Source: Dunaliella salina (taxonomy: Eukaryota; Chlorophyta; Chlorophyceae; Chlamydomonadales; Dunaliellaceae). Taken from it: a stretch of DNA of 16,155 nt. This document shows positions 417 to 16,155 of this stretch, piece after piece. The notes beneath the pieces are model-generated. The model had not been told where the DNA came from. It made no database searches and saw nothing but the letters and a program-made list of their open reading frames with translations. Each line of letters opens with the position of its first letter. Positions within the stretch are counted from its first letter, which is position 1. Both the position numbers and the translations under genes were made by a program. The DNA lies in contig MU069499.1 of the NCBI GenBank assembly GCA_002284615.2, positions 419,340 through 435,494 of the forward strand, read 5' to 3'.

Positions 417-458
417 CGGAAGTGGCTGACAGCGTTGAAGAGATCACAGGAGGCATGG
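417..458 (+). CDS. gene 1 first visible exon (42 nt)
   Basis: A strong acceptor (CTCTTGACATGCAG) and a strong donor (GTGAGT at 459) bound 42 nt reading EVADSVEEITGGM with phase 1 at both ends. The next exon needs exactly phase 1, and the join gives GGMGEHGYMTG. Reading phase 0 instead also stays open (RKWLTALKRSQEAW), but it does not fit the next exon. An upstream exon must exist and was not found. Confidence 0.5.
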
Positions 459-1163
459 GTGAGTCCAAGCCATTTAGTGGAACCTTGCTCTTCACAATGA
501 TGACCTCACTTGTAGAAAAGAAAAAGGGGGAAGAATATACAGGCCGTAAAAACACTCCCCAACAATTGCGGTAAAAGACGCAATGGTGTAAAGAGGCACA
601 TGCCTCCCTCACCAGAAGATAAGAGGGTTGTTAGCGAGGACCAGGTTGTTTTCTGGCAGCACATGGCTCCAGGGCGCCAGAGTTATGATGAGCGTTTTTG
701 TTTTCAATGGCAAGTCTGGTTGGGGTAAGTTTATGTGCATATTGCACAGATTGAGCACACAACACTGAGCTTTCCTGCAAGCCTTCCTGCAAGCTTGGTA
801 TATCTGTGTGGGTCAGTCCCTGGTTTTCTGAGTTGGTCAAGGGTATGGGCAGTAAAGATCTCACCCACAACCAGAAGAATTGTGTGCAGAGAGGTCCCTG
901 TACATTGATGCACGCAGCTGGAAGAAGACGGATGTTATATTTTTCTTGTCATCTCCCGATAAATAGATTGGATAGGAGGGTTCCAAGGCAGGTTAGACTG
1001 GTGTTTCTTAGCATGGTACGATGCCAATGGGCAAACTGGTTTATCTGTGAATACTCCAGAAGTGAGGGAGCATGGTGCTGGCTGTCTGAATTTCTTATGA
1101 AGTGGGTTCATGCATTTTTGTCAACATGCTTGCCTTGTACACACCCTCTCTCTTCCCCCCCCC

Positions 1164-1216
<53 letters not shown>

Positions 1217-1228
1217 GCACACACACAA

Positions 1229-1265
<37 letters not shown>

Positions 1266-4200
1266 TGTTCACAATTTCTCATTATAGGCGAGCATGGATA
1301 CATGACTGGAACCAGGGGCCAGCGCAGCCAGGGTGCAGCACGCCTTGCTGGCAGGTAAGCTTCTCTGTTGCTTGCAGCCTTACACGAAGCAGCCATGATT
1401 GGAGCAGCCTTACATGGAAAGCTTTTACATACTGCCTGGCAGGACGAAGTCAGCAAAGGGTGACATTGCAACTTTTAAACTGGCAGCTTGTCTGAGGCGC
1501 AATATCCTTACAGAGAACTTTTGTGGACATGGATCATCTTTCTTCTTTGTTGATTTGGTAGATGAAGAGCGCTGTTGTGAAAAACATTCACAAAAGTAAC
1601 TCTCTAGTTGTGCTCAACATCTCTTTTCCCCACGCAACCAGTTCAAAACCTACCTTGAACATATTCTGGTTGCGGCCTGCCTTACGACAGATAAGCTCTG
1701 TACATTTAGATACTTCATGCATCTGTACATCTAGATACCTCACTCTGATACTTTATGCAAAGAGGTTAAGAAATGAGGCATAGCTTTTTTCACTTTATGT
1801 GCAAAAGATGAAAGCAAGTGCAAAGAGGTTAAGAAATAAGGCATAGCTTTAATCACTTTATGTGCAAAAGATGAAAGCAAGTGCAGGCATTGGGAACCTT
1901 AAAACCAAGCCTGTATGTCTTTGTCATTCTTCTCAGTCAACTTTACCAGACGTCTGTTCTCTTGTTGATTCTTTGCAGCGGAGCTTACTCCCTGTGCGCA
2001 AAGGTCCCAGCCAGTGGATATAAAGGAAGGAGGCCAGGAGACGTGCGTCTTGCATACCATGTAAGTAGAGATATGTGCACATCACAATTCCTTTATATAT
2101 GCATGCAGCATGCCTGCAGCAATGGTTTATGGATGCATACAATGATGCGTAATGAGTTGAGGTACTGGGAAGATTTCTCTGGGGCTAAGGGGTGGGTCTC
2201 CAGTTTGCTGGACAGGACCTGCCTGAAAGGTCGCGTCATAGGTCCCTGGTGGAAGTCAACTTGCTTGACTGACAGACTTGACAGCTTTCTTTCGATGCAT
2301 GCATGCGATGATGCATGCAGCATACCTGCCGCAGTGAGTCTTCTTTTCCTTAATTGCTGTTGGGAAAGGCTTCCTCTTCCTACATAACTTATTTCTTTTT
2401 CTTGCATGTAGCATGCCTGTCCACTTCCCCATGCGTGTTCCTTTCTACACTTGTCTAAGAAGAAAGAGGGTTCAGTTATGGATTCGGTTGAAATCGGCCC
2501 ATTTTTTGTTTGCAGAGCTATTGAAGTACTGCAAACCATAGATGGCAGTCACTGCCTGGCGCCAGTGCAGAGGGCTAATGGTGATGAGTCTTCACATACT
2601 GCTTTACCAAGGAGCAGGGCGTGACCTCTATGGACTTGGATATCAGGCTGCCAATGCTTGACTCTGCAAGCTGTCTTAAGTGATACTAGTCTTTCCATGA
2701 AAGTTCCAGCTTCCTTACCTCTTGCTAGTACTGATTGCTGGGCTTATCACTTCTGTGCCTGCCATACTCCTTACAGTCCGACCAGAGGGGGTTTAAGCAA
2801 TGGCCCCTCTCCTTCCTATGCACGATGGCCCCTCTCCTTCCTATGCACGATGGCCCCTCTCCTTCCTATGCACGGAACATTTCAATGCAGGGCTAGATTC
2901 TTTTCCTCACTCCACTCTAAAGAATGTGGTGTGTACACATATGAGGTGGGCTTATGCTACTGTAACACACGCTGCTGCTTCAGCTGGAGCTGCCTGTGGA
3001 GGGTGAGGAAGGAGATTGCCAACGAGAGCTTGGCTTGGACAGGTCAGGCTACTTTGTGCTTACAATCAAGAATCCAGCAACCAAGGAGACAAGCAAAGCG
3101 GCTGGACTACCAACTGCAGGTATTATTCTTGCACAGTTTTGAAAATTATGCACATTGTTTCTGCATACTGAGCTTTTGAACTCCTGCACATTATCTTAAC
3201 ACACTGAGCTTTTGAGCTCATGCACACAGGGATTGATAGCCATGTTGTGCATACAAGTGGCATTTGGAGCAGCAACAGAAATGCTACAGTGTGAACAAGG
3301 TCGCAATGTTCATTTCTTGATTCACATCCCCCTTTTTCTTTCTCCTGTTGGTCCCCAACGATTTTTTAATTGTGTTTGTATTAATATGCTCTTTGCTCTT
3401 TGCTCTTTGGTTACTGAATCCATGCCATCTGTTATTTCACTGTTGACTTGCAATTGATCATACAGAGTGATTCAAATGGAGCAACGTTGCTTGATGTGCT
3501 GTAGGCAGACTTGCCATAATAGATACTCCGAGATACTTTCATTTGAAAGCAACTGCTTTTAGGAATGGAAGCCATAACAAATGCTGCTCATACGTATGGC
3601 CATTGGGCAGGTCTGTTGCCCTTGCTTCTTCTATCTCTGCTTTCATACTGTAATGCACTAAAATCCAAGTGTATTTTCAAGTTGTGCGACAAAAGATCTG
3701 GATCTTATCATGTTTTGCAGGACCCAAGCCTGAATACACAGAGGAGCAGGCAGAGCAACTTGTGGTAAGTGTATGGCCTGTGTCATCCTTGAAATTCTGG
3801 TTGCATTTGATGCACGTTGATGCAACATAGGGGAGCAGGCAGAGCAGCTCGTGGTAAGTGTGTTACCCTTTCTTCTTAGACAGAAGCAATGTTGGGGAGC
3901 AAGGAATTAAGGCTACAAGCTACTTATGCTGTCCACTGCTACTTCCAAACACTGCTCAGTATGGGCACCAAGTTTACTCCGCAAAGAATCAATGCAACGT
4001 GCGCCTGATTTTTCATTTTTCATTTTCAGAGAGTCATAATGATGCATGCTTCATTTCTGTGCTTTTATATGTGAATGGTGGTCAGAATAGATTAAGAAAG
4101 GTCTACGCAGGCCAGAGGCTGTGTGCGTTAAGGGAAGGTCCCCTAACTAGCAAGCTAGGAAAGGCCTCACGCAAAGGCCCTCAAAATGCAAGAATTTACA

Positions 4201-5644
4201 CAGCTGGCCACCAGAAACAGAGCGAATAAGGAGTGGTGTAGGCTGCACTTTTCCACAAAATTCTCTTTTCCTCTCTTGATTGATGGCATGAAATGTCCAC
4301 CACTTGTTGCATTTCTGAGCTCATCACAGAGGACTTCATGGTGTGGAGGGCCTTAAAGATGTTATTTTGAAGCCTTCTTTCTGTACACATTGGGCGCCCA
4401 ACTGTGCAGGGGTACCAGTGGGCTGGTCCGTATAAAGATGTCACTGTGCTGGACTACAAGGGCACAGAGCTCCTGCTCATTGGAGGGCGCAACCAGCAAT
4501 TGCAAAGTAAGGAAAAAGTGGGAGCAACAGCCCAGCGTGCACTCAATTGATTTCCCATGCTCAAGCCTTGGATCAAGGTCTAGTTGCTTTGATGCGACTG
4601 CTTTGGTTTAATTTAATGTTAATGTTGCCTAAGCTGTAAGATTGTGCCGTTTGATGTCTTTGTCAATAAGGCGTGAACAGCCAATCACCTAGCAGCTGGT
4701 CATCTAACGCTGCGAGTGATGACTGATCAGCCTACGACAAAAGCTGAGGTAGAATTAGGTTGATTTGATGCTAATCAGGTGCTCAGTTAGTGAAGTAGTG
4801 TCGTGTGCTAAGTTAGTTATAAAGCTTTGGGTGCCATCTGCTCTTTCTCTCTACCTTTTGCTGTGTGCAGCAAGCATTGGCCCAGCAGCTGATCATTTGG
4901 AGGCCCTGGCTCAGAGGGACACCGACGAAGCACAAAAGGAGAAGGGTAGGTCCAAAAAAGCAATGTCCTGAATGTAAGCTCGTGATCGACAGATTCTGGA
5001 GGTCGAGTTGCTAACCTGTGGTATCGGAAACCCAAATGCTTTCAAAGTCAAAAAAGAACATGTTGTCCAAAGGCCATCTGCCCAAAAAAACATGCTTGCT
5101 AGAGTTGGACCATTTGCTCATGCTGCAGTGATAGATCACAGCTGTACCTGCATGCATGCCTTTACACCCTTTTTGTTGAAAGATGACCATCATGTGAAGC
5201 TCAGTGTAGTTTCTTTGCATTTCATGATACTGGGCATTGCGCTCAATTGCCTGTTTTTGGCTGTGGATCACTTGCAGGCAGTGCTTATTTGCAATCATTT
5301 GGCTCCAAAATAACATTCGAGATCACTGGCAGGCAACGCTCATTTGTCTTTGAATCACGCATGCTTCGAATCACATGCAAGATCTCTTGCAGGCATTGCA
5401 ACTTTTAAAACTTAGTTTTAGTTTTGGTAAAGGTTAATAGTATTTGCCTTCAATATCACTTGCAGGCAGTGTTCTTTTAACTAACTTTGGATTTTGAGCA
5501 CTTGCAGCCCGTGCACATTTGCCTTTATTTGGCATTGAACCACTTGCAGGCAAGGACAAGAAAGAGGCACTGACGGCTCAACTGCAAGAACGCCTTGGCC
5601 CTGCACCTGACATCTCACCTTCCAAGGATGGGCAGTGGAAATAG
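417..5644 (+). CDS. gene 1: spliced gene of an unrecognised family, paralogue of gene 2
   Basis: Function is not recognised. Proposed exons are 417-458, 1288-1459, 1979-2060, 2412-2564, 2984-3119, 3721-3764, 4410-4506, 4871-4945 and 5550-5644. Every junction keeps one reading frame and ends at TAG 5642-5644. From the ATG at 1395 the eight coding exons give 747 nt, or 248 residues plus stop. If the exon at 417 is coding, the protein is longer and its start is not visible. Landmarks in order: helix-like ALHEAAMIGAALHGKLLH; GAYSLCAKVPASGYKG; AIEVLQTIDGSHCLAP; ELPVEGEEGDCQRELGLD then SGYFVLTIKNP; PKPEYTEEQAEQLV; GYQWAGPYKDVTVLD then KGTELLLIGGR; a charged Lys/Glu/Gln-rich tail; terminal DGQWK. 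No signal peptide or membrane segment is apparent, so a soluble protein is inferred. The strongest evidence that it is real is the matching protein and shared intron positions of gene 2 on the other strand. The weakest parts are the 5' end (in-frame TAA at 1356) and the GTGCAG donor after 2564. Confidence 0.72.
631..905 (-). mobile_element. LINE-like retrotransposon C-terminal fragment, copy A (decayed)
   Basis: On the minus strand this reads LHTILLVVGEIFTAHTLDQL then, after a one-frame shift near 750-790, SVQYAHKLTPTRLAIENKN. It matches the fragment at 7540-7988 (LHTILLGVRGVIYAPHTLEPL, YAYKLASTRRALE) segment by segment. I recall such sequences at the C-terminal end of LINE-like reverse transcriptase proteins in algal genomes; that naming is from memory. 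The copy is 5'-truncated and frameshifted, so it is a dead fossil. It sits in the intron between the gene 1 exons at 417 and 1288. Confidence 0.65.
1155..1257. repeat. compound microsatellite C20-(TC)n-(AC)n
   Basis: Twenty C (1155-1174) run into about eleven TC units (to about 1196) and then about 30 AC units with a few interruptions (to about 1257). It ends 30 nt before the gene 1 acceptor at 1287, so this intron's pyrimidine-rich 3' region is largely microsatellite. Apparent protein frames through it on both strands are repeat artefacts. Confidence 0.97.
1288..1459 (+). CDS. gene 1 exon 2, with in-frame TAA or a mini-intron
   Basis: The acceptor is CTCATTATAG and the donor is GTGACA at 1460 (phase 2). 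The frame reads GEHGYMTGTRGQRSQGAARL, then TAA at 1356-1358, then ASLLLAALHEAAMIGAALHG and on to TAWQDEVSKG. The downstream part must be in this frame, because the join to the 1979 exon then gives KGGAYSLCAK, which has a counterpart in gene 2. The upstream part joins in phase to the 417 exon. A GTGCAG donor at 1333 with the TTGCAG acceptor ending at 1377 would remove 45 nt including the TAA and keep the frame. Alternatively translation starts at ATG 1395, which has G at -3. Confidence 0.6.
1757..1882. repeat. 63-bp tandem duplication in a gene 1 intron
   Basis: Copies lie at 1757-1819 and 1820-1882. Each begins GCAAAGAGGTTAAGAAAT and includes CACTTTATGTGCAAAAGATG. They differ at only a few positions (for example ATGAGG versus ATAAGG). 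They lie about 100 nt before the acceptor at 1978. Nothing suggests coding. Confidence 0.95.
1979..2060 (+). CDS. gene 1 exon 3
   Basis: The acceptor TTCTTTGCAG and donor GTAAGT are both near ideal. The 82 nt start in phase 2, end in phase 0 and read GAYSLCAKVPASGYKGRRPG then DVRLAYH. The gene 2 exon at 13829-13913 has the same phases and reads GTYCIYTYRTQPGVESRGP then RLAYVL, so this is one of the anchors for the homology. Confidence 0.75.
2412..2564 (+). CDS. gene 1 exon 4 (borders less certain)
   Basis: The acceptor TTTCTTTTTCTTGCATGTAG is preceded by an in-frame TAG formed by the splice site itself. The 51 codons run phase 0 to phase 0 and end AIEVLQTIDGSHCLAP before GTGCAG. A second acceptor-like TTTGTTTGCAG ends at 2515 inside the exon, but using it would not fit the phase of exon 3. 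The 3' part looks coding; the 5' part (Cys/His/Ser-rich) is less convincing. No gene 2 counterpart was found. Confidence 0.5.
2800..2874. repeat. three perfect 25-bp tandem repeats
   Basis: ATGGCCCCTCTCCTTCCTAT plus GCACG is repeated three times without a mismatch, in the intron before the gene 1 exon at 2984. Being 25 nt long, the unit shifts frame with each copy, which argues against a coding role. Perfect identity points to a recent expansion. Confidence 0.97.
2984..3119 (+). CDS. gene 1 exon 5, conserved core
   Basis: The acceptor is GCTGCTTCAG and the donor GTATTA; phases are 0 to 1 over 136 nt. It encodes LELPVEGEEGDCQRELGLDR then SGYFVLTIKNPATKET and SKAAGLPTA. The first 30 residues from ELP match gene 2 at 16 positions (my count), including the C-Q-x-x-LGL block and K-N-P. 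In gene 2 an intron separates K from NP; here the exon is continuous. This is the best conserved segment together with the 4410 exon. Confidence 0.8.
3721..3764 (+). CDS. gene 1 exon 6
   Basis: The acceptor TGTTTTGCAG and donor GTAAGT bound 44 nt (phase 1 to 0) reading PKPEYTEEQAEQLV. It corresponds to NPHYTAEQLASFK in gene 2. Its 3' end and donor are repeated 89 nt downstream (3831-3853). Confidence 0.78.
3831..3853 (+). pseudogene. partial duplicate of gene 1 exon 6 with its own splice sites
   Basis: After ACATAG, the sequence GGGAGCAGGCAGAGCAGCTC plus GTG and GTAAGTGTG repeats the end of exon 6 (GAGCAGGCAGAGCAACTTGTG, then GTAAGTGTA) with three changes. It could act as a 23-nt alternative exon or a rival donor. 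Adding 23 nt after exon 6 would shift the frame, so constitutive inclusion is unlikely. Confidence 0.6.
4410..4506 (+). CDS. gene 1 exon 7, GTELLL core
   Basis: The acceptor is CAACTGTGCAG and the donor GTAAGG; phases are 0 to 1 over 97 nt. It encodes GYQWAGPYKDVTVLDYKG then TELLLIGGRNQQLQ. Gene 2 has GQRWGSCEDLSLLDAEG then TELLLVGAR in an exon of the same phase at both ends. The invariant W, D-x-x-x-LD and GTELLL-[IV]-G-x-R look like a family signature. Confidence 0.82.
4871..4945 (+). CDS. gene 1 exon 8
   Basis: The acceptor is GCTGTGTGCAG and the donor GTAGGT; phase 1 to 1 over 75 nt. It encodes SIGPAADHLEALAQRDTDEA then QKEKG, acidic and Lys-rich and probably helical. It corresponds to the start of the gene 2 exon at 10864 (HVSYQTLIKHRQDLSAA). 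Confidence 0.72.
5263..5558 (+). repeat. six copies of an acceptor-like CACTTGCAGGCA element
   Basis: Near-identical pieces occur at about 5267, 5324, 5384, 5458, 5500 and 5541: ATCACTTGCAGGCAGTGC, ATCACTGGCAGGCAACGC, ATCTCTTGCAGGCATTGC, ATCACTTGCAGGCAGTGT, AGCACTTGCAGCCCGTGC and ACCACTTGCAGGCAAGGA. Several are followed by ATTTG. The last is the actual 3' splice site of the final gene 1 exon; the other five are look-alikes inside the intron. Confidence 0.8.
5550..5644 (+). CDS. gene 1 last exon
   Basis: It starts in phase 1 after CACTTGCAG and reads KDKKEALTAQLQERLGPAPD then ISPSKDGQWK and TAG. KEALTAQLQERLG aligns with KDLLINLLRKAVG in gene 2, and the PSKDGQW end aligns with PAETGKW. The frame stays open after the TAG until a TGA near 5960, which matters only if TAG is not a stop in this organism. 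Confidence 0.75.
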
Positions 5645-6487
5645 GCTGCAGCGTCTGATCTGTATCTGCACTGCATCAAGGGCTTGTGCAGCAAGCACCA
5701 CCGCAAGATGGCAGCTATGGGAGAGTTAATGAACGAGTGTTTTTCAATGTTCTTTGTGAGGGCAGAGATGACAAGGCCTGATCATTTCGGAGGAGAGCAA
5801 AGAGGGCCGCATCTTACTCCTCAAATCAATTCAAGACGAGAAGAATTTTGGCCTTTGACGTCATTTTCCCTTCTTATAACTCTTCTTGGAAGGACTTGCC
5901 TGTGTTTTTTTTTGACCCCGAGTCTGAGCAAATCACATTCTCATTCACACTCATGTCATTGACAATTTAATGCACAGAAACCAGATGCCATAATATGAGC
6001 ATTAAATCAATTATTCTTCTCCTGTACTATTGCTTGAATGGATTGTTTAATGTTAACTTTCTATTTGTAAATTTTGCTTGTGCCATGATTAAAAAGGAAA
6101 GAAGGATAGAAAAGAACATCCACTTAAGTAGGAGGACATATGTGGAAAGAACTAAGAACCAGCAGACGCTCTTGTAACTTAATAGAATTACTTTATGGGT
6201 AATTCAATAGCAATGTTACATTGTCAAACCACAGGGCCCCCACCCCTCCAAACTGGACCAGGAAGAATCCAGGATTTGAGATGGAGAATGATTTTAACAC
6301 TTGTTTAATACGAAGCCTATGTATGCTAACATAGTTGGAACAGACCATAATCATTTCAGGATTTGGAAGACACAGAAGCGCTTCACGAGTTTGTAAATCA
6401 ATTCATGTAAGTTATACTTGGAGTGGCGGGTTTGCGTCTTGGAATTTTCAAGACATGTGTAAATGTGTCTCTCAGAATTTAAAGGAC

Positions 6488-6855
6488 ATTTATGGCCATG
6501 GGGGGAGCCAATGTCGTGTTCGAGTGAATCGCAGGTGGAAAATTTTCTTGGTTTGAGAAGTTTGTGGAAATTCAGAAATTTTCTTTTTAGCCAGGCACTT
6601 TCAATCATTGAGCCTCCTTCGCTTATGCAAGCCACAATGCAACTTCGAGCAGACTGCGCTTCCCGCAGGAGCTCTCTCTACCCACACACAGCCTGTCAGC
6701 AGGCTGTCCGCTGGGCAAGGGAGGGGAACATTCAGAAATGATTAGTGCCTGAATAGGCAAAAAAATTCTGATATTTCACAAATTTCTCGAACCGGGAAAA
6801 TTTTTCACCCGCAATTCACGCGAACACGACATTGCCTCCCCGCCTGGCCATAAAT
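6488..6855. repeat. fold-back element: inverted repeat with ~95-bp arms
   Basis: The left arm (6488-6583) begins TTTATGGCC and contains CAATGTCGTGTTCG. The reverse complement of the right arm (6761-6855) starts the same way and has the same 14-mer in the same place. About 80 of 95 positions match by eye. The spacer is about 177 nt with no obvious coding. A transcript would fold into a long imperfect hairpin. It resembles a MITE or fold-back element; target-site duplications were not identified. Confidence 0.8.
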
Positions 6856-7539
6856 CCGTCCAAAATTTGGGATGGAGAATCACTTTGTGATTGATTCTAT
6901 ACCAACATAATGATACCAGAATGACACTGCACGGTTAGCTCAGACCAGGGTGCAGCACCTCAAGTAGTGGTCCTGCTGAACCTGCCTGTTCTTGCCTTCA
7001 GGTGACTGCTTGCACAGCTTTAGACTCTGTCTCTTGGTACTAATACACATGTTTGGATTAACCAACACCAATCACAACTTTATATTCTTCCCATGTAGCG
7101 ACCCACCGTTCCCCTCAGCAACGCAAAGCAGTTTTAGTTTTTGTTGTAAGATAGAACCTTTGCATTTAAATGTACAGAATGACCATGTGATTTACACTTA
7201 AAAGTTTACAAGTACAGCATGACTCACGCTCGGAGCGTGTACCTTGCAACCACATTGTTAGGCTTTTTGGGCCATGAAGTTCTGACCACTGGTGGACTAA
7301 CATACACTGATGGAGATCTAACCCGTTGCCAATTACAACTGAACTTACTTGTAGACAAATGAGATCTACGCAGGGAAATAGGATAAAAAATGAGAGGCCT
7401 GGCAGGGCCTGGAAAGAAAGAAAGAAAAGAAAAACTACGCAGGCAGTGAAAACACTCCCCGCATCAATCAAGGAAAAGGGGATACCTAGGGCCGAGGCAC
7501 CGTGTATCCGCTTCACCAAGAGAAAGCAAAAGAAAGAAG

Positions 7540-7988
7540 TCAGTGGGGATCAGGTGGGTTACTAGCAGTGGCCCGTGCCTGACCTTGTTGAAAGTTGAAA
7601 AAGTTTTTCTCAAGAGCGCGTCTGGTGCTAGCAAGTTTGTAAGCATACAGGACAGAATGAGCATGAAGCCTCCGAGCAAGCTTGGTGGCCTTGTGGGTGT
7701 CAAGACCAAGCTCCTTAAGAGGCTCCAATGTGTGCGGAGCGTAGATGACTCCTCGCACACCTAACAGAATAGTATGGAGGGTGACCTGAGCCAAGGCCCT
7801 AGAAAGATGACGACAAAGGTTGCGGCGTTGCTGCTTGGAAGCCTGAAGCTGGCTGTTGGGCCGGGTGTCCTCACAGTATTTGACTTCTACAAGGTGGATG
7901 CGACTCTGATCTGATTGGTCGAGTAGCTGTGGCTGGCCTGGATTCTATTTTTGAGACGGACTGCTTCAATGAAGTCCAGAATGATAAA
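7540..7988 (-). mobile_element. LINE-like retrotransposon C-terminal fragment, copy B
   Basis: Minus-strand frames give FIILDFIEAVRLKNRIQASH, a frameshift near 7910-7930, then SRIHLVEVKYCEDTRPNSQL, VTLHTILLGVRGVIYAPHTL and THKATKLARRLHAHSVLYAY, ending SNPPDPH. The VEVKYCEDT segment has the E-x-K look of a PD-(D/E)xK nuclease core; that is inference. The naming as the C-terminal end of a LINE-like protein is from memory of similar algal sequences. No reverse transcriptase core lies next to it, so this is a 5'-truncated, frameshifted relic. The downstream stretch at 7430-7480 (GCAGGCAGTGAAAACACTCC) resembles that downstream of copy A (530-575), probably the element's 3' UTR. Confidence 0.75.
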
Positions 7989-8721
7989 TAACAACCCACT
8001 TGGCGTGCATAATTTTGGTTTGCTAGCTTTACTTGTTGGGACTGAATGTTAGTGCCAGCGCTGAAGCACGCTGGCTATTTGCCCAGCGTAGACTTTTTGT
8101 TACCCATGACTGAGCTCTATGAATTTTGTAGAAAAAAGGATTAAAAACACATGGACAGAGAAAACTTCCCTATGTAGTTGATGGAAACAAATTGACTCCA
8201 AAAGGTCCTGGCTACGAGAATTTTCTTCACAGAACTTGAAAACTGTTGGACAAGGTGCAAAAAGGTAACAGCTTTGTGAACCTAGCAGGATGGGCAGTTA
8301 GCTTACAAGCAATCTTAAAGGCGCGCTAGTGGTCCAACCCTTGATTGTGTAAATTGCTCAAGGGCGCACTCTAAACCACCTTCACTTATGCCCCGTAAAA
8401 AGGTTCTGCCAGCACCAAGGTGTATCGTTGTTCTGTATACATATAAACAAAGAGCAAAGTCACTAGCATTCAAAATGAGATGCCATGCCACAAACGTTCT
8501 TCAAGATCAGGCACAGGGTGCTTCCAGGGGGAGGGGGTTGCTGGGCGTGTGGCAGCGGAGAAGAAAGAGGTACAGTCCAGGTGCTAATAAACATGGCTGA
8601 CAACCCTCCTGATCCCCATTAGCCCTGCTTTTGGCTCTTGCCTGGGCTAGCTGTTTCAAATCTTGGTTTGAGGGCTCTCTGGCAAGGCCCCAGCAGACTT
8701 TCACTTTTATTTTTGCAGGCT

Positions 8722-8767
8722 TGCTACTCAGGGAACCTTTCCTTGCTGCTACTCAGGGAGCCTTTCC
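8722..8767. repeat. 25-bp tandem duplication
   Basis: TGCTACTCAGGGAACCTTTCC at 8722 recurs as TGCTACTCAGGGAGCCTTTCC at 8747 with one mismatch. No function is evident. Confidence 0.85.
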
Positions 8768-9133
8768 AATGTATGCAGCCTATTGCCTGCATAGACTTTC
8801 CTTTCTCTCAATCACCAAGAGTCTCAGTCCAGTCAGCGCTTCTAGACAACTAGGTAAGAGTTCCTTCTACCACCGTACTTTTCCTGTTCATTATGCAGCT
8901 TGGTCGGCAACACTTGGGCCCAGAGAATCATGTTGTCATTGCATACTTGATCCATGTCGAGGACTGTTAATAGAAAGACTCTTTCTTCTTGGAGAAGAAT
9001 TAGCATAAGTTCAGGTTTATGTGTTATGTACACCTTGAAACATGGAAGCCTGTGCCGTTTGCAGGCACTTATGTTTTCTGAGAGGCAGTAAGCCAGAATG
9101 AGAAGGCTGCATCATATCAGGTGCAGCATAGCC

Positions 9134-9342
9134 CTAAAGCCACTTTCCTGTTTCTGCAGGCAAAGTTGGGATAGGATCTTCTTCAGGAGCATGCTGCTGC
9201 GGCTGCTGCGGCTGTTGCTGCAGAGGATGGAGGTGCTGAGACTGCTTTGTTACTTCTCCCTGACGCTGCCTCTCAGTTTTCACAGCCTCTGTCAGTGCAC
9301 CCGTGGGGATAAGAGGAACATCAGTGATGTGCACAGTACCAG
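9134..9342 (-). CDS. gene 2 last exon, Gln-rich, conserved GKW end
   Basis: The acceptor on the minus strand is CCTGTGCGCAG; the phase is 1. It reads GTVHITDVPLIPTGALTEAV, KTERQRQGEVTKQSQHLHP, LQQQPQQPQQHAPEEDPIPT and LPAETGKWL, then TAG. The Gln-rich part is encoded by a CAG/CAA-type tract (9195-9225) that may vary in length. The last ten residues align with the gene 1 end (PSKDGQWK). Confidence 0.72.
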
Positions 9343-12300
9343 CTGCGCACAGGAACAGAAACATCAGTGATGTGCACAGTAATAGTTGTGTGGATGACGC
9401 AAAAAAGAGAGGTAGAATTGCTTTTTAACGAGCAAGCTGCATGTATTGTACAAATGCATGGCATTTGCATGGTGCCAAGCTAGCTACTTGCTTGATGCAA
9501 ATGCAAACAAAAGCACTTCAGTACAGAAGGTGTCACATTAGCAAGCTTTTGCAATGCTGCTTAAAGTGCTTCCACACAGCGGAAGCACTTTGGGCAGCAA
9601 TGCAAAAGCTTTGCTGCATGGGCAGGTAGCCCTTCAACCAATCGCCTTCTTTTTTCCTTAAGATGTGCTGTGATTGATCTCAATCAGCAATCACAATGCA
9701 TTCTGGGGTGATGCTTGCTTTCCCTGATTGCATGTCCAAATTTCACTTTGCAATCGATGCTTCCAGGTATCAAATTCTTGTGATGAGTGGCTGCCCAAGC
9801 AGCCATTTTTTGAGGAACATGGAATCAGGTGCACTAAAGGGCATGAGACTGTGCCTTAAGGACTGCTGCACACCAGGGTCAGTTGTAACGATGGACGTGC
9901 CAGAACCGACAGCAGTGACGGCTCCCTTGCCACCCCCAGCAGGCAGGTCAGCGGATGGCACAGCAAGTGTGTGGTGTGGTGGGTTGGGGGGGTCCCCCAC
10001 AGCTTTGCGAAGCAGGTTGATCAGAAGATCCTGTAGAGTGGTGCATTGGAAAACTTTTGTGTGCTAGCTCCCCAAGTGAAAATCAAGTTGAGTACCACGC
10101 AAATGGGTTTGCACCTTTTACTGGTTTGATCTCCTTCCTTGGGTGTTAAGCTCAGGCAGCCTAACACATTCTCTGAAAAGGCTGATGATGACCAAAAAGA
10201 CATTGACCAGCCAAAATTGATTGCATCCTGCAATCCTTGCATTCCAGCTCAGGCACACTCAGCGCAGAGGCATGCTTCCAGAATCCACACCGTGTACCTT
10301 GTAGAAAGCTACAATTGTTCCCTGGGGCGTCTTCAATTGCTGCTTGTGCAGATTCATGCTCCGTCTCAGGTGTGGCCCCTGCTGCACTGAGATCTTGCCG
10401 GTGCTTGGTAACATTAAATCTTTGCAGCCAAGCTCAGGCACGCACATCTCACAGCCCATGTACCAACATAAATGACAGGCTTTCATAATTCACGCCGTGC
10501 ACCTTGTAGGAGCTAAAGTTCTCACAGTGGCGTCTTTTATCGCTGCTCGCGTAGTGCAGCAGTTGCTTGCTCTGTCTCTTGTGGGGCCCCTGCTGCACTG
10601 AGGTCTTGCCAAGATAACATAGAACCCTTGCAGTCAAGCTCAGACACACTCATCGCAGAGGCCATAGACTATCGAGGACAAAGACTTCCAGAATCCAACT
10701 GTGCACCTTGTAGGAAGCCACGACAGTGCTCCCAGTGGCGTCTTTCATCGCTGCTTGTGCAGTTGCTTGCTCCATGCCAGGTGAGGCTCCTGCTGCACTG
10801 AGATCTTGCCGATGCTTGATGAGTGTCTGGTAGCTCACATGCCTGATAGCATCATCCATGTTACCTGCATTCAAATCAAATGGCAATCCAGACAGCATCC
10901 ATTTTGCCTGCGTGCAAACAATTCCGAGTCGTGGCAGGCTACGGCTGCGCGTGTTTTGGTGACATGGAGTGCAACAGGTCGTGAACATCTTAGAAGCAAT
11001 TGTTGCGTCCGTTCCTCAAAAAAGAGTGGTGGCCCTCCCTTTTTTCCACATGATTTCTCTGAGCAGGTATCGTAAAGTCTCAGAATCTGATCAGCTCTGC
11101 TGACCAAATCCTCTGCACTTTGCACCATGAGCAGTGGCAGCCAGCAAACATCAAAGGCGATCATGCAAAATGTCACGTGCTTTCAGGAAAGTTCCCATGC
11201 CAGCAAGACAAACGGCTAAATTTTCTGAACGTACCTCTTGGGGGCTCATGTCTTGCACCAACCAGCAGCAACTCTGTTCCCTCTGCATCCAACAGGGAAA
11301 GATCCTCACAGCTGCCCCACCTCTGGCCCTGCATGAAGCATAAGTGTTGTGGAGAGCAAAAGTGTAAAAATAAAGCAAGGAGGGTGGAATGCAACCTGAT
11401 ACAAACACAGTGAGCCTGATAAAGCAGGGAGAGTGGATAGCAACCTGTCAGAGGCTCAGTCAGCCAAAGAAAAGCCAGAGACAGAGCTTACAAGGATTTG
11501 GAGGGTAAGCCATGCTTCTCAAACAAATGATACTTCATTCCCAAATCTAATATTCCCAGTGAAGTTGCAACCTTCATGCTGCTTGTGTCAATTTGACCTG
11601 TGCTAAGAAAAGGGTGGATGAAAGGGATCTTGATGTGCCTCACCTTGAATGAGGCCAACTGCTCTGCAGTGTAGTGTGGATTGCGTGAGATAGCGGGCCC
11701 AAAGGGTGGGCCTGCATCATCACCTCGGTACTGTGGGTTCTGCAAGGAGAGGAACATGCCCAATGGCTTAAGAAGGAGAAGGAGTCTATGCTGGAAAAAA
11801 GCCAGCGTGCATAATGAAAACGCAGTAGTTAGTCCTGAAACTGAGAGTGTGCCCCACCAACCCTCCCCCCCATGGCTGCATGGGATGGGCCTACACATTG
11901 ATATTTTAGCTAGAGCTTGAAAAGAAAAAAGAAAAGAATAGAAAGATCTTGCCATCAATAGAGCTGGCTGTGTGCATGCATATCTGACACTATGAAAGAG
12001 GCTCTCTCTCTCAGCCCTTGCATGCATGCTCTTCAAGGAGTACTTGCAAAGATCCGACCGATCCCAACAATACCTCTGCATTCATTTTCTTATGGGCAAG
12101 GCTTATCATGGAGCACCAGGTGTACAGCATCCAAGGCTCCTGTCCAAGTGAACTCTTTAGATTTTTTTCTTTTATACCAGTAAATTTCATCAGCAAGTTC
12201 TGATCTGAAGGGCAACGTGTTTCAAGAGTACATCCGCCAGCAGACTGCCTGCTTCCAAAAAAATAATCCTGTCACTTATAAAAAGCGCAGATACAATGAA

Positions 12301-13542
12301 CTTCCCTTAATAACAGCAGCCTCCGGTTAATGAAGACTTGTCTTATCTCCTCTAGAAGTACAGGCACCATAATTTATTTTGACACTGCTTGGTATTAAAA
12401 AATTGTGTAGCCCTAGTGCCAGCCTGATAATTACTCTGGCATGTTGTTGTGCAGTCAATCCTGCTTGATCTTCACCCTGGGATGCTTACAAAAGGGAACC
12501 AAGAACAAAAACGTAACACATTGTTTCCTCTTGGCCTTCCCCTTCGATGCTACAACCCACCCCTTCACCTCCTTCAATGCCTCATTTTTTTGAACCATAG
12601 AAGAGTCTTGAGGCGTGTCTCATGCGCCTCTCATGACAAATGCTTGGTCCAAGGTCGCAAGCACCTCTCATGTAAACAGCAAGGTCAAAGGTCAAAAGCA
12701 CCTCCCATGACAACTGCTTGGTCAAAGGTCGCAAGCAACTCCCATGACAACTGGTTTCAACAAAGGTCAAAAGCGCTTCTCATGACAAGTGATGACCATA
12801 TCTCAACAAAGGTCAAAAGCAAGCAGCTTCAGGTAACAAGCACAGCAGGCAGCTGCTCATATGCAAGACCCATCGGGCCTACCTTCACAACAAGAGCCAA
12901 GACACCCTTTTGCTCCAGCCCCAGGTCCTTCTGGCACTCCCCAGCCTCTGGCTCCATTGGCAGCTCCTGAGATTGGAATAACACAGGTTTTGTTGAAACC
13001 CTTCAGGTGTCAATGTATGCATTATTCAGTCTAAATCTGAGGTTTTGTTGAAACCCTTCAGGTGTCAATGTATGCATTATTCAGTCTAAATCTGAGAGCA
13101 GTTCCAGTTGGATATAGACAATGCAAGTGCATAAGTATTTCTGTTTTGGAAGCAATCTGTTCAAGATATTGGTTATTGCTAAGTTAAGCTCACATGTACC
13201 ACAGTTGAAGGCTCAACCAAATTTTGGTTGAATTGGTTGTGAAAAAATTCTAAATTTCAGTGCATAATCATACCTGCAATGCATGCAAGCATCTCTCTGT
13301 TAATGCTAACATCACCAGATGCGCAGCCATTTGCACCATCACAAATCCTCATGAATTTGCTTGCACAAAAGTCTAAATCTTCAGTGCATCATCGCCATCA
13401 TGACTAATCACTCATTGCAGACATGAGTCAGATCTGCAATGCATGCATCACTCTGTTCATGCTAACATCACCAGATGCACGGCCATATGCACCACCACAG
13501 ATCCTGATGAATGTGCTTGCACAAAATTCTAAATCTTCAGTG

Positions 13543-13615
<73 letters not shown>

Positions 13616-13913
13616 GTCATCATCATCATCATGACCCACCACTCATTGCAGACATGAGTCATGTCTGCGATGCATGCATCACTCTGTTCATGCTAACATC
13701 ACCAGATGCATGGCCATTTGCACCGTCACAATCCCTTGAACAGCGACCATGCAAATCTTCTTTGTACCCTACTGATTGCATGGCACTGGGCGTGCCAACA
13801 AAGGGCTCCAACTTTCTCTCCATCTTACCAGGACATATGCCAGGCGTGTGGAAGATGGTCCCCTGCTCTCAACTCCAGGCTGTGTGCGGTAGGTATAAAT
13901 GCAGTAAGTCCCA
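9134..13913 (-). CDS. gene 2: spliced paralogue of gene 1, 5' end incomplete
   Basis: Function is not recognised. Exons in transcript order are 13913-13829, 12966-12883, 11739-11644, 11328-11235, 10864-10707, 10030-9835 and 9342-9134. After the base that completes an earlier codon they total 921 nt, 307 codons including the TAG at 9136-9134, with every phase agreeing. Landmarks: GTYCIYTYRTQPG; ELPMEPEAGECQKDLGLEQK; NPQYRGDDAGPPFGPAISRN then PHYTAEQLASFK; GQRWGSCEDLSLLDAEGTEL then LLVGARHEPPR; DDAIRHVSYQTLIKHRQDL; DLLINLLRKAVGDPPNPP; a Gly/Ala/Thr-rich stretch; a Gln-rich stretch (LQQQPQQPQQ); terminal TGKWL. Compared with gene 1 it has about 100 extra residues between the LLRKAVG and GKW segments. 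Exons equivalent to gene 1's 1288-1459 and 2412-2564 were not found, and no start codon is visible. The protein is inferred to be soluble. Three gene 2 or gene 1 donors are GTGCAC/GTGCAG rather than GTRAGT, and these need transcript support. Confidence 0.72.
9317..9381. repeat. 22-bp direct repeat across the gene 2 last acceptor
   Basis: AACATCAGTGATGTGCACAG plus TA occurs at 9317-9338 (inside the last exon) and again at 9360-9381 (in the intron just upstream). The period is 43 nt. The acceptor at 9343-9344 lies between the copies, so the start of the exon was partly duplicated into the intron. Confidence 0.9.
9835..10030 (-). CDS. gene 2 exon, Pro/Gly/Ala-rich
   Basis: The acceptor on the minus strand is CACTCTACAG. 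The 196 nt (phase 0 to 1) read DLLINLLRKAVGDPPNPPHH, TLAVPSADLPAGGGKGAVTA and VGSGTSIVTTDPGVQQSLRH, ending LMPF before GTGCAC. The first 13 residues match the end of gene 1 (KEALTAQLQERLG); the rest is specific to gene 2 and looks disordered. The 3' border was chosen because phase 1 fits the next exon. Confidence 0.65.
10233..10830. repeat. three ~200-bp tandem copies of an exon-plus-intron segment
   Basis: The anchor TGCTGCACTGAGATCTTGCC recurs at about 10380, 10591 (AGGTC variant) and 10791, giving periods of 211 and 200 nt. Each unit holds, on the minus strand, a RQDLSAAGA-type coding piece ending CTACAAG before GTRCAC or GTG, then about 80 nt of intron. The unit nearest 10.8 kb is the live exon. 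The middle one meets a stop (TAA near 10538) in the equivalent frame. The last keeps QDLSAAGATPETEHESAQA open but has lost 2 nt near its end. The two extra copies are therefore probably decaying exon duplicates in the intron. Confidence 0.82.
10707..10864 (-). CDS. gene 2 exon, source of the tandem copies
   Basis: The acceptor on the minus strand is TTTGAATGCAG and the donor GTGCAC; phases are 1 to 0 over 158 nt. It encodes NMDDAIRHVSYQTLIKHRQD then LSAAGASPGMEQATAQAAMK and DATGSTVVASYK. The upstream join in phase gives HEPPRGNMDD, and the downstream join gives SYKDLLINLL. Confidence 0.68.
11235..11328 (-). CDS. gene 2 exon, GTELLL core
   Basis: The acceptor on the minus strand is GCTTCATGCAG and the donor GTACGT; phase 0 to 1 over 94 nt, as in the gene 1 exon at 4410. 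It encodes GQRWGSCEDLSLLDAEGTEL then LLVGARHEPPR. G, W, D, LLD/VLD, GTELLL and G-x-R are shared with gene 1. Confidence 0.8.
11644..11739 (-). CDS. gene 2 exon, NPHYTAEQ segment
   Basis: The acceptor on the minus strand is TTCTCCTTGCAG and the donor GTGAGG; 32 codons, phase 0 at both ends. It reads NPQYRGDDAGPPFGPAISRN then PHYTAEQLASFK. It continues K|NP across an intron that gene 1 lacks, and it spans a place where gene 1 has an intron (after LPTA). The surrounding open frame (11488-12081) simply reads through into both introns. Confidence 0.78.
12622..12830. repeat. degenerate ~45-bp tandem repeat in gene 2 intron
   Basis: At least four diverged units share CATGACAACTGCTTGGTCAA, then AGGTCGCAAGCACCTCTC or a variant of it (AAGGTCAAAAGC). 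They lie directly after the gene 2 exon ending at 12883, inside the 1.1-kb intron. The + strand open frame through it (12449-12970) is antisense to a real exon and is not accepted as a gene. Confidence 0.75.
12883..12966 (-). CDS. gene 2 exon, CQKDLGL core
   Basis: The acceptor on the minus strand is CCAATCTCAG and the donor GTAGGC; 28 codons, phase 0 at both ends. It reads ELPMEPEAGECQKDLGLEQK then GVLALVVK. It matches the gene 1 exon at 2984 almost without gaps, and its acceptor sits at the equivalent position and phase. Confidence 0.82.
12986..13095. repeat. perfect 55-bp tandem duplication
   Basis: GGTTTTGTTGAAACCCTTCA and the next 35 nt occur at 12986-13040 and again, unchanged, at 13041-13095. 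On the minus strand this lies just upstream of the acceptor of the 12966 exon. Perfect identity implies a recent event. Confidence 0.95.
13261..13740. repeat. three diverged copies of a ~150-bp unit, one interrupted by CAT expansion
   Basis: The anchor ATGCTAACATCACCAGATG recurs at 13303, 13459 and 13690. The first period is 156 nt; the second is 231 nt because the CAT tract grew between copies 2 and 3. Neighbouring shared pieces include GCAATGCATGC and TCTAAATCTTCAGTGCATCA. On the minus strand all copies stay open through ASGDVS-type sequence, but the differences between copies are almost all amino-acid changing, so purifying selection is not visible. Confidence 0.88.
13543..13632. repeat. 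(CAT)24-CGT-(CAT)5 trinucleotide tract
   Basis: Twenty-four CAT units (13543-13614), one CGT, then five CAT units. The first copy of the surrounding unit has only CATCATCGCCATCATGAC at the same place, which shows that the expansion is local. It lies in a gene 2 intron, so the poly-His frame on the + strand is not expected to be translated. Confidence 0.97.
13829..13913 (-). CDS. gene 2 first visible exon
   Basis: The acceptor on the minus strand is TTTTTGCTGTGCAG and the donor GTAAGA; phase 2 to 0 over 85 nt. It reads GTYCIYTYRTQPGVESRGPS then STRLAYVL. Phases, length and sequence parallel the gene 1 exon at 1979-2060. It begins in phase 2, so at least one more 5' exon exists. Confidence 0.75.

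Positions 13914-16121: not shown

Positions 16122-16155
<34 letters not shown>
16122..16155. repeat. poly-C run at window end
   Basis: Thirty-four consecutive C close the window. As with the GT run at the start, this is a likely place for an assembly to stop, so the true length is unknown. Confidence 0.97.

Follow-up and report, generated by a model that had tools for sequence, protein, structure and literature searches.

A 16,155-base stretch of the 285-Mb Dunaliella salina genome (contig MU069499.1, positions 419,340 to 435,494; the whole stretch is called the window here) carries two intron-rich convergent genes that almost certainly form a paralogous pair from one protein family. The family (P0003, P0122, and relatives) is about 250 residues long, is unnamed in the curated libraries searched, and occurs in bacteria, archaea, and eukaryotes alike, though at very low frequency, a distribution typical of mobile accessory genes. 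What stands out most is the combination of such a rare three-domain family with a predicted fold like that of the LigD 3'-phosphoesterase (PE), a conserved set of basic residues, and no PE metal site.

The exons of both genes were re-derived from splice sites and reading frame (Table 1). Gene 1, on the forward strand, has eight exons within the window, which join in a single open frame with a TAG stop ending at 5644; gene 2, on the reverse strand, has five, running from 13913 down to 10707. All 11 introns are GT..AG and measure 315 to 1143 bases. The initial annotation had described two spliced convergent genes encoding matching proteins, and BLASTP bears this out with an E value of 6e-27 and 37% identity over 131 residues (the first S of the gene 2 query was supplied by analogy with gene 1, as the window codes only that codon's last base). 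A recount by eye on both proteins also gave the 16 identical residues of 30 claimed for the ELP..KNP block. Identity between the paralogues at codon positions 1, 2, and 3 is 0.53, 0.66, and 0.38 (125 aligned codons), as expected for coding sequence, and the conserved core of gene 2 has no internal stop. Six-frame searches of the genome returned only these two loci among the best candidates scored, whether the query was gene 1, gene 2, or a longer stretch of P0122, the full gene 1 protein.

Several introns had been said to be shared. Two of them, the phase-0 intron before G-x-x-W and the phase-1 intron that follows the GTELLL exon, have identical positions and phases in the two genes, but the one before ELP is shifted by a codon: it falls between AYH and LELP in gene 1 and between AYVL and ELP in gene 2, in phase 0 both times. 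Around the GAYSL/GTYCI exon, the acceptor before GAY or GTY is in phase 2 in both genes, but the preceding exon is seen for gene 1 only. The proposed differences are real: an intron between K and NP interrupts gene 2 only, and one after LPTA interrupts gene 1 only. When sites were drawn at random, with the acceptor given the weight of a complete site, at least three exact agreements arose in 1.5e-5 of the trials.

Table 1. Exons of the two genes in the window, in order of translation
Feature	Coordinates	Strand	Remarks
Gene 1 exon, first in window; coding starts at residue 227/228 of DUNSADRAFT_14983	417..458	+	
Gene 1 exon, EHGYMTGTRGQRSQGAARLAG	1288..1354	+	Aligns with the TRGERxxPAARPAGEG block of prokaryotic relatives
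Gene 1 exon, GAYSL..RLAYH	1979..2060	+	Phase-2 acceptor common to gene 2
Gene 1 exon, LELP..KNP..LPTA	2984..3119	+	
Gene 1 exon, GPKPEYTEEQAEQLV	3721..3764	+	
Gene 1 exon, GYQW..GTELLLIGGR	4410..4506	+	
Gene 1 exon, SIGPAADHLEALAQRD..	4871..4945	+	2 of 25 residues changed (by eye) in P0001
Gene 1 last exon and stop, ..DISPSKDGQWK*	5550..5644	+	Profile match weak, E 5
Gene 2 exon, GTYCI..RLAYVL	13829..13913	-	Lacking in the public model DUNSADRAFT_14984
Gene 2 exon, ELPMEPEAGECQ..VVK	12883..12966	-	
Gene 2 exon, NPQYRGDDAG..ASFK	11644..11739	-	
Gene 2 exon, GQRW..GTELLLVGARHEPPR	11235..11328	-	
Gene 2 probable exon, NMDDAIRHVSYQ..	10707..10864	-	Start phase common to gene 1; overlaps the 206-bp tandem array

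It had been suggested that the family may be undescribed, which holds in that it has no curated name but not for the genes themselves, both of which are already public as hypothetical proteins of D. salina. The gene 1 model equals residues 228-438 of DUNSADRAFT_14983 (P0122, 438 residues) letter for letter, and a joined query matches it at 2.1e-132; with 227 more N-terminal residues in P0122, gene 1 extends beyond the window. A profile of both proteins matches DUNSADRAFT_14984 (P0002, 108 residues) at 7.8e-45. Compared by eye, P0002 shows no difference from gene 2 between MEPEAG and EPPRG, lacks the GTYCI exon, and reads into the intron past GARHEPPRG; the public gene 2 model is therefore shortened at both ends, and our models show how it should be extended. 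P0001, a translation from another assembly (E 5.3e-3), holds one gene 1 exon. When the family profile was run against the 822 open stretches of the window, no N-terminal exon of gene 2 rose above noise, so gene 2 probably also continues N-terminally outside it. Near 9342-9160 lies a possible last exon of gene 2 that by eye looks like the family C terminus but is out of phase with the 10707 donor. The bases adjoining the window in this genome read N, and the window itself starts with (GT)36 (1-73) and ends with 34 C (16122-16155).

The splice sites, the codon-position pattern, the match between the paralogues, the stop-free core of gene 2, and the exact agreement of gene 1 with a public protein that is colinear with prokaryotic ones together make it highly improbable that the exon chains are fortuitous or belong to pseudogenes, a reading that could draw on the ambiguous 3' end of gene 2, on the 206-bp tandem array over its fifth exon, and on the intron read-through of its public model. 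The array (10275-10810) is degenerate, holds 2.6 copies, and repeats part of the fifth-exon coding segment (DLSAAG.., by eye); it may reflect exon duplication or decay. Elsewhere, the intron between the first two gene 2 exons contains two pairs of repeats (119 and 113 bp) as well as a (CAT)30 array (13283-13730). Between the genes lies a 112-bp inverted repeat (6488-6599 and 6744-6855), 81% complementary with a 144-base spacer, which looks like a fold-back element or one resembling a miniature inverted-repeat transposable element.

No domain had been recognised in either protein from the sequence, and library searches agree: neither Pfam nor sequence searches of the PDB gave an acceptable match, and NCBIfam, run only on ten relatives, gave none for these. 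Pfam matches below the cut-off (DUF6381, DUF7205, DUF3105, Usp, and others) are taken as chance. The two-protein profile found 203 proteins at an E value of 1 or better; most of the 120 listed are unnamed metagenome proteins, and the named prokaryotic members among these are one Isosphaeraceae protein and one from a Thermoproteota metagenome-assembled genome (MAG). The joined query adds two further named eukaryotic members, Cz01g30210 of the green alga Chromochloris zofingiensis (Chlorophyceae, like Dunaliella) and DENSPDRAFT_814046 (P0124) of the basidiomycete Dentipellis sp. KUC8613. Scanning genome contigs with two peptide patterns gave 31 loci in eight bacterial phyla and one archaeal. The bacterial loci belong to Deltaproteobacteria/Myxococcota, Chloroflexota, Nitrospirota, Zixibacteria, Pseudomonadota, Actinomycetota, the Isosphaeraceae (Planctomycetes), and a Fibrobacteres MAG, and the archaeal loci belong to Nitrososphaeria. 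With relatives in bacteria, archaea, Chromochloris, and a fungus, the suggestion that the family might be lineage-restricted has to be given up.

The algal genes are recognisable from the prokaryotic members alone. A profile of prokaryotic genome loci and metagenome proteins (alignment A3 minus its algal protein) gives gene 1 a score of 85.5 bits and gene 2 one of 66.0 bits, compared to 4.6 for the best of 1000 shuffled controls. Gene 1 is colinear with the bacterial proteins through the C-terminal PxxPxxxGxW, kept as DISPSKDGQWK, and P0122 has the N-terminal strand LExGxIxFxYRP and the GKKxLP motif, neither of which was seen within the window. Members called as open reading frames (ORFs) are mostly stand-alone, 17 of 20 having 220-325 residues and the others 134, 161, and 546, in a survey that included no systematic search for fusions. 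One Micromonospora match (G437:C1:4976345-4977082) sits in an 818-codon open frame, possibly a fusion or simply a long GC-rich frame.

Presence within host groups is sparse: the family occurs in 1 of 240 genomes of the Bradyrhizobium host's class, that one being the host itself; in 4 of 120 of the Nitrosocosmicus class (host included, one of the four in pieces); and in 12 of the 81 genomes of the Micromonospora host's genus, a count that takes in the hosts. One Nitrososphaeraceae MAG has three family genes on separate contigs (L050, L053, and L054), and frame breaks interrupt the L054 match range. Such a sparse but broad distribution is consistent with an accessory gene that travels by horizontal transfer. 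We rejected an origin in phages or viruses: tblastn of the gene 1 core found no match in phages, the 58 viral stretches that fit the patterns include none encoding a relative, and BFVD yielded nothing at an E value of 0.001. Also rejected were an RNA feature, the window having no Rfam gathering match, and a defence gene, with a single weak PADLOC match (E 0.025) among 34 members.

In a tree of 36 proteins, the Dunaliella proteins pair (support 98/89) and Chromochloris joins the pair (95/94). P0002 covers only a third of the columns; with a fuller gene 2 model, the support for the pair is 100/99. The basidiomycete protein P0124 stands apart on a long branch and possibly came by a separate transfer, with a single eukaryotic clade not rejected (approximately unbiased test, p 0.376). 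Because the deep bacterial branches are poorly supported, no donor can be named. We infer that the gene spread by horizontal transfer; the common ancestor of the two sampled green algae would already have had it, and a duplication in the Dunaliella line would then have given the pair, and we consider this single algal origin with later duplication likely. No paper was found containing GTELLLIG, DUNSADRAFT_14984, or the three other public member names, and among the matches listed for D. salina and horizontal gene transfer, none concerns the family by its title or the start of its abstract.

The structure of the domain is predicted confidently, and the nearest solved fold is the eight-stranded LigD PE barrel according to VIA-align (both models) and Foldseek (the algal model); the domain is probably a PE-like barrel. 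Residue correspondences with LigD were taken as evidence only within the VIA-align ranges. The alignment behind the first model took in 24 of the 31 loci, leaving out L043, L047, and L054 (frame breaks), L035, L040, and L048 (further Micromonospora), and L033 (the same protein as P0014). The full gene 1 protein bears an extra charged tail, the first 79 residues of which have a predicted local distance difference test score (pLDDT) under 50. The conserved positions are largely basic: in P0122 numbering, R167 (33/35), R183 (34/35), R204 (36/36), K211 (35/36), R221 (29/36), R250 (26/29), R253 (30/36), and R259 (35/36). Others include E158, Y166, D180, Y266, Y289, E292, Q303, N320, and D365. P0002, the public gene 2 protein, is blank at the basic positions, and these counts therefore do not cover gene 2.

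The surroundings of the prokaryotic genes do not form a conserved operon. In an all-against-all BLASTP of 410 ORFs from the 31 loci, the largest neighbour clusters cover six loci, in varying places, if we set aside the family gene, which ORF calling overlooked in 11 of the 31 loci, and a presumed antisense-ORF cluster. Pfam was run on 98 neighbour proteins, namely 96 of 142 ORFs from 25 loci, with spurious-looking ORFs dropped and L031, L036, L040, L048, L051, and L053 excluded beforehand, and two added by hand, L030:6140-6808 (phosphoribosyltransferase-like) and L034:4582-5136 (Hsp20-like). It gave PEBP four times, phosphoribosyltransferase three times (a count biased upward because one was added by hand), CBS twice, and DUF389 and the Na/H exchanger at least once each; inspection by eye adds Hsp20-, OsmC-, and PRC-barrel-like genes at these loci. 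The control set comprised 101 of 116 ORFs from 20 stretches at positions of our choosing in 11 of 16 host genomes, and has no PEBP, phosphoribosyltransferase, or CBS among its 25 most frequent families, a listing that could hide single-member families. Compared with the control loci, the surplus is slight and does not reach significance alone.

These accessory stress-type neighbours, the patchy presence of the family, and its largely soil, marine, and hypersaline hosts would suit a general stress-island protein for desiccation, salt, or oxidation, a structural or small-molecule barrel unrelated to nucleic acids. Such a role is on the unlikely side, since no neighbour is common to most loci, the slight excess includes the hand-added phosphoribosyltransferase, and a small-molecule barrel leaves the conserved basic residues unexplained. 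The PE domain itself (LigD_N) is found in 12 of 16 host genomes, which represent 16 of the 31 loci, versus 38 of 240 genomes of one host's class (Fisher p 8e-7, a comparison that crosses phyla). For the six alphaproteobacterial hosts, the figure is 5 of 6 (p 6e-4), and genome size and habitat act as confounders in both comparisons. Together, neighbours and LigD co-occurrence hint at a stress or genome-maintenance role.

Our preferred explanation has several steps of unequal strength. In it, the PE-like barrel would grip a polyanion, either a nucleic-acid end or a polyphosphate-like ligand, through the conserved Arg/Lys set, and the protein would serve as a factor in stress or genome maintenance, either without catalysis or with catalysis of a different kind, the least certain step. 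Polyanion binding by a non-PE mechanism is a tentative proposal, and the whole account (pair, patchy family, PE-like fold, transfer and duplication, and polyanion grip) has a little short of an even chance of being right. A further reading, rather unlikely in our view, makes the family a new branch of the LigD-phosphoesterase barrel superfamily, spread over bacteria, archaea, green algae, and fungi, that lost the Mn-binding His/His/Asp site and uses the conserved Arg/Lys set for a metal-independent hold on nucleic-acid ends or another polyanion; the green algae would have acquired the gene, given it a disordered charged tail, and duplicated it. If the PE-like fold is true, the family adds to a DNA-repair fold a branch lacking the known active site, and it offers a testable candidate for a stress or genome-maintenance role in an alga that tolerates salt.

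Two known systems invite comparison. The CYTH/triphosphate tunnel metalloenzymes are marked by an ExExK motif at the first strand, in place of which the family has the consensus LExGDIYFxYRPx. They and Mediator Med18 have lower Z scores than the PE barrel, and no profile match to CYTH or triphosphate tunnel enzymes was reported among 34 members. We consider it very unlikely that the protein is a relative of these enzymes with triphosphate or polyphosphate as a bound ligand or substrate.

The LigD 3'-phosphoesterase (PF13298 LigD_N; PDB 3n9b, 3n9d, 3p43, 3p4h, and 5dmp) is closer, being the nearest predicted fold to the family. An active member of its superfamily, repairing 3' DNA or RNA ends and too diverged for detection by sequence, would account for the predicted fold and for LigD_N in so many host genomes. 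It is nonetheless quite unlikely: PF13298 matches none of the 34 members, and profile-profile comparison by hhalign gave a probability of 0.2%, a score that 47 of 150 column-shuffled LigD profiles equalled or bettered. According to PMC8656161, the PE Mn site requires His42, His48, and Asp50, with Arg52, His84, and Tyr88, so that LigD works with three His, an Asp, an Arg, and a Tyr. In the family alignment, by contrast, no His column reaches 80% (the best, at 78%, has Arg in gene 1), and two Asp columns do. The domain therefore should not be classed as a PE enzyme.

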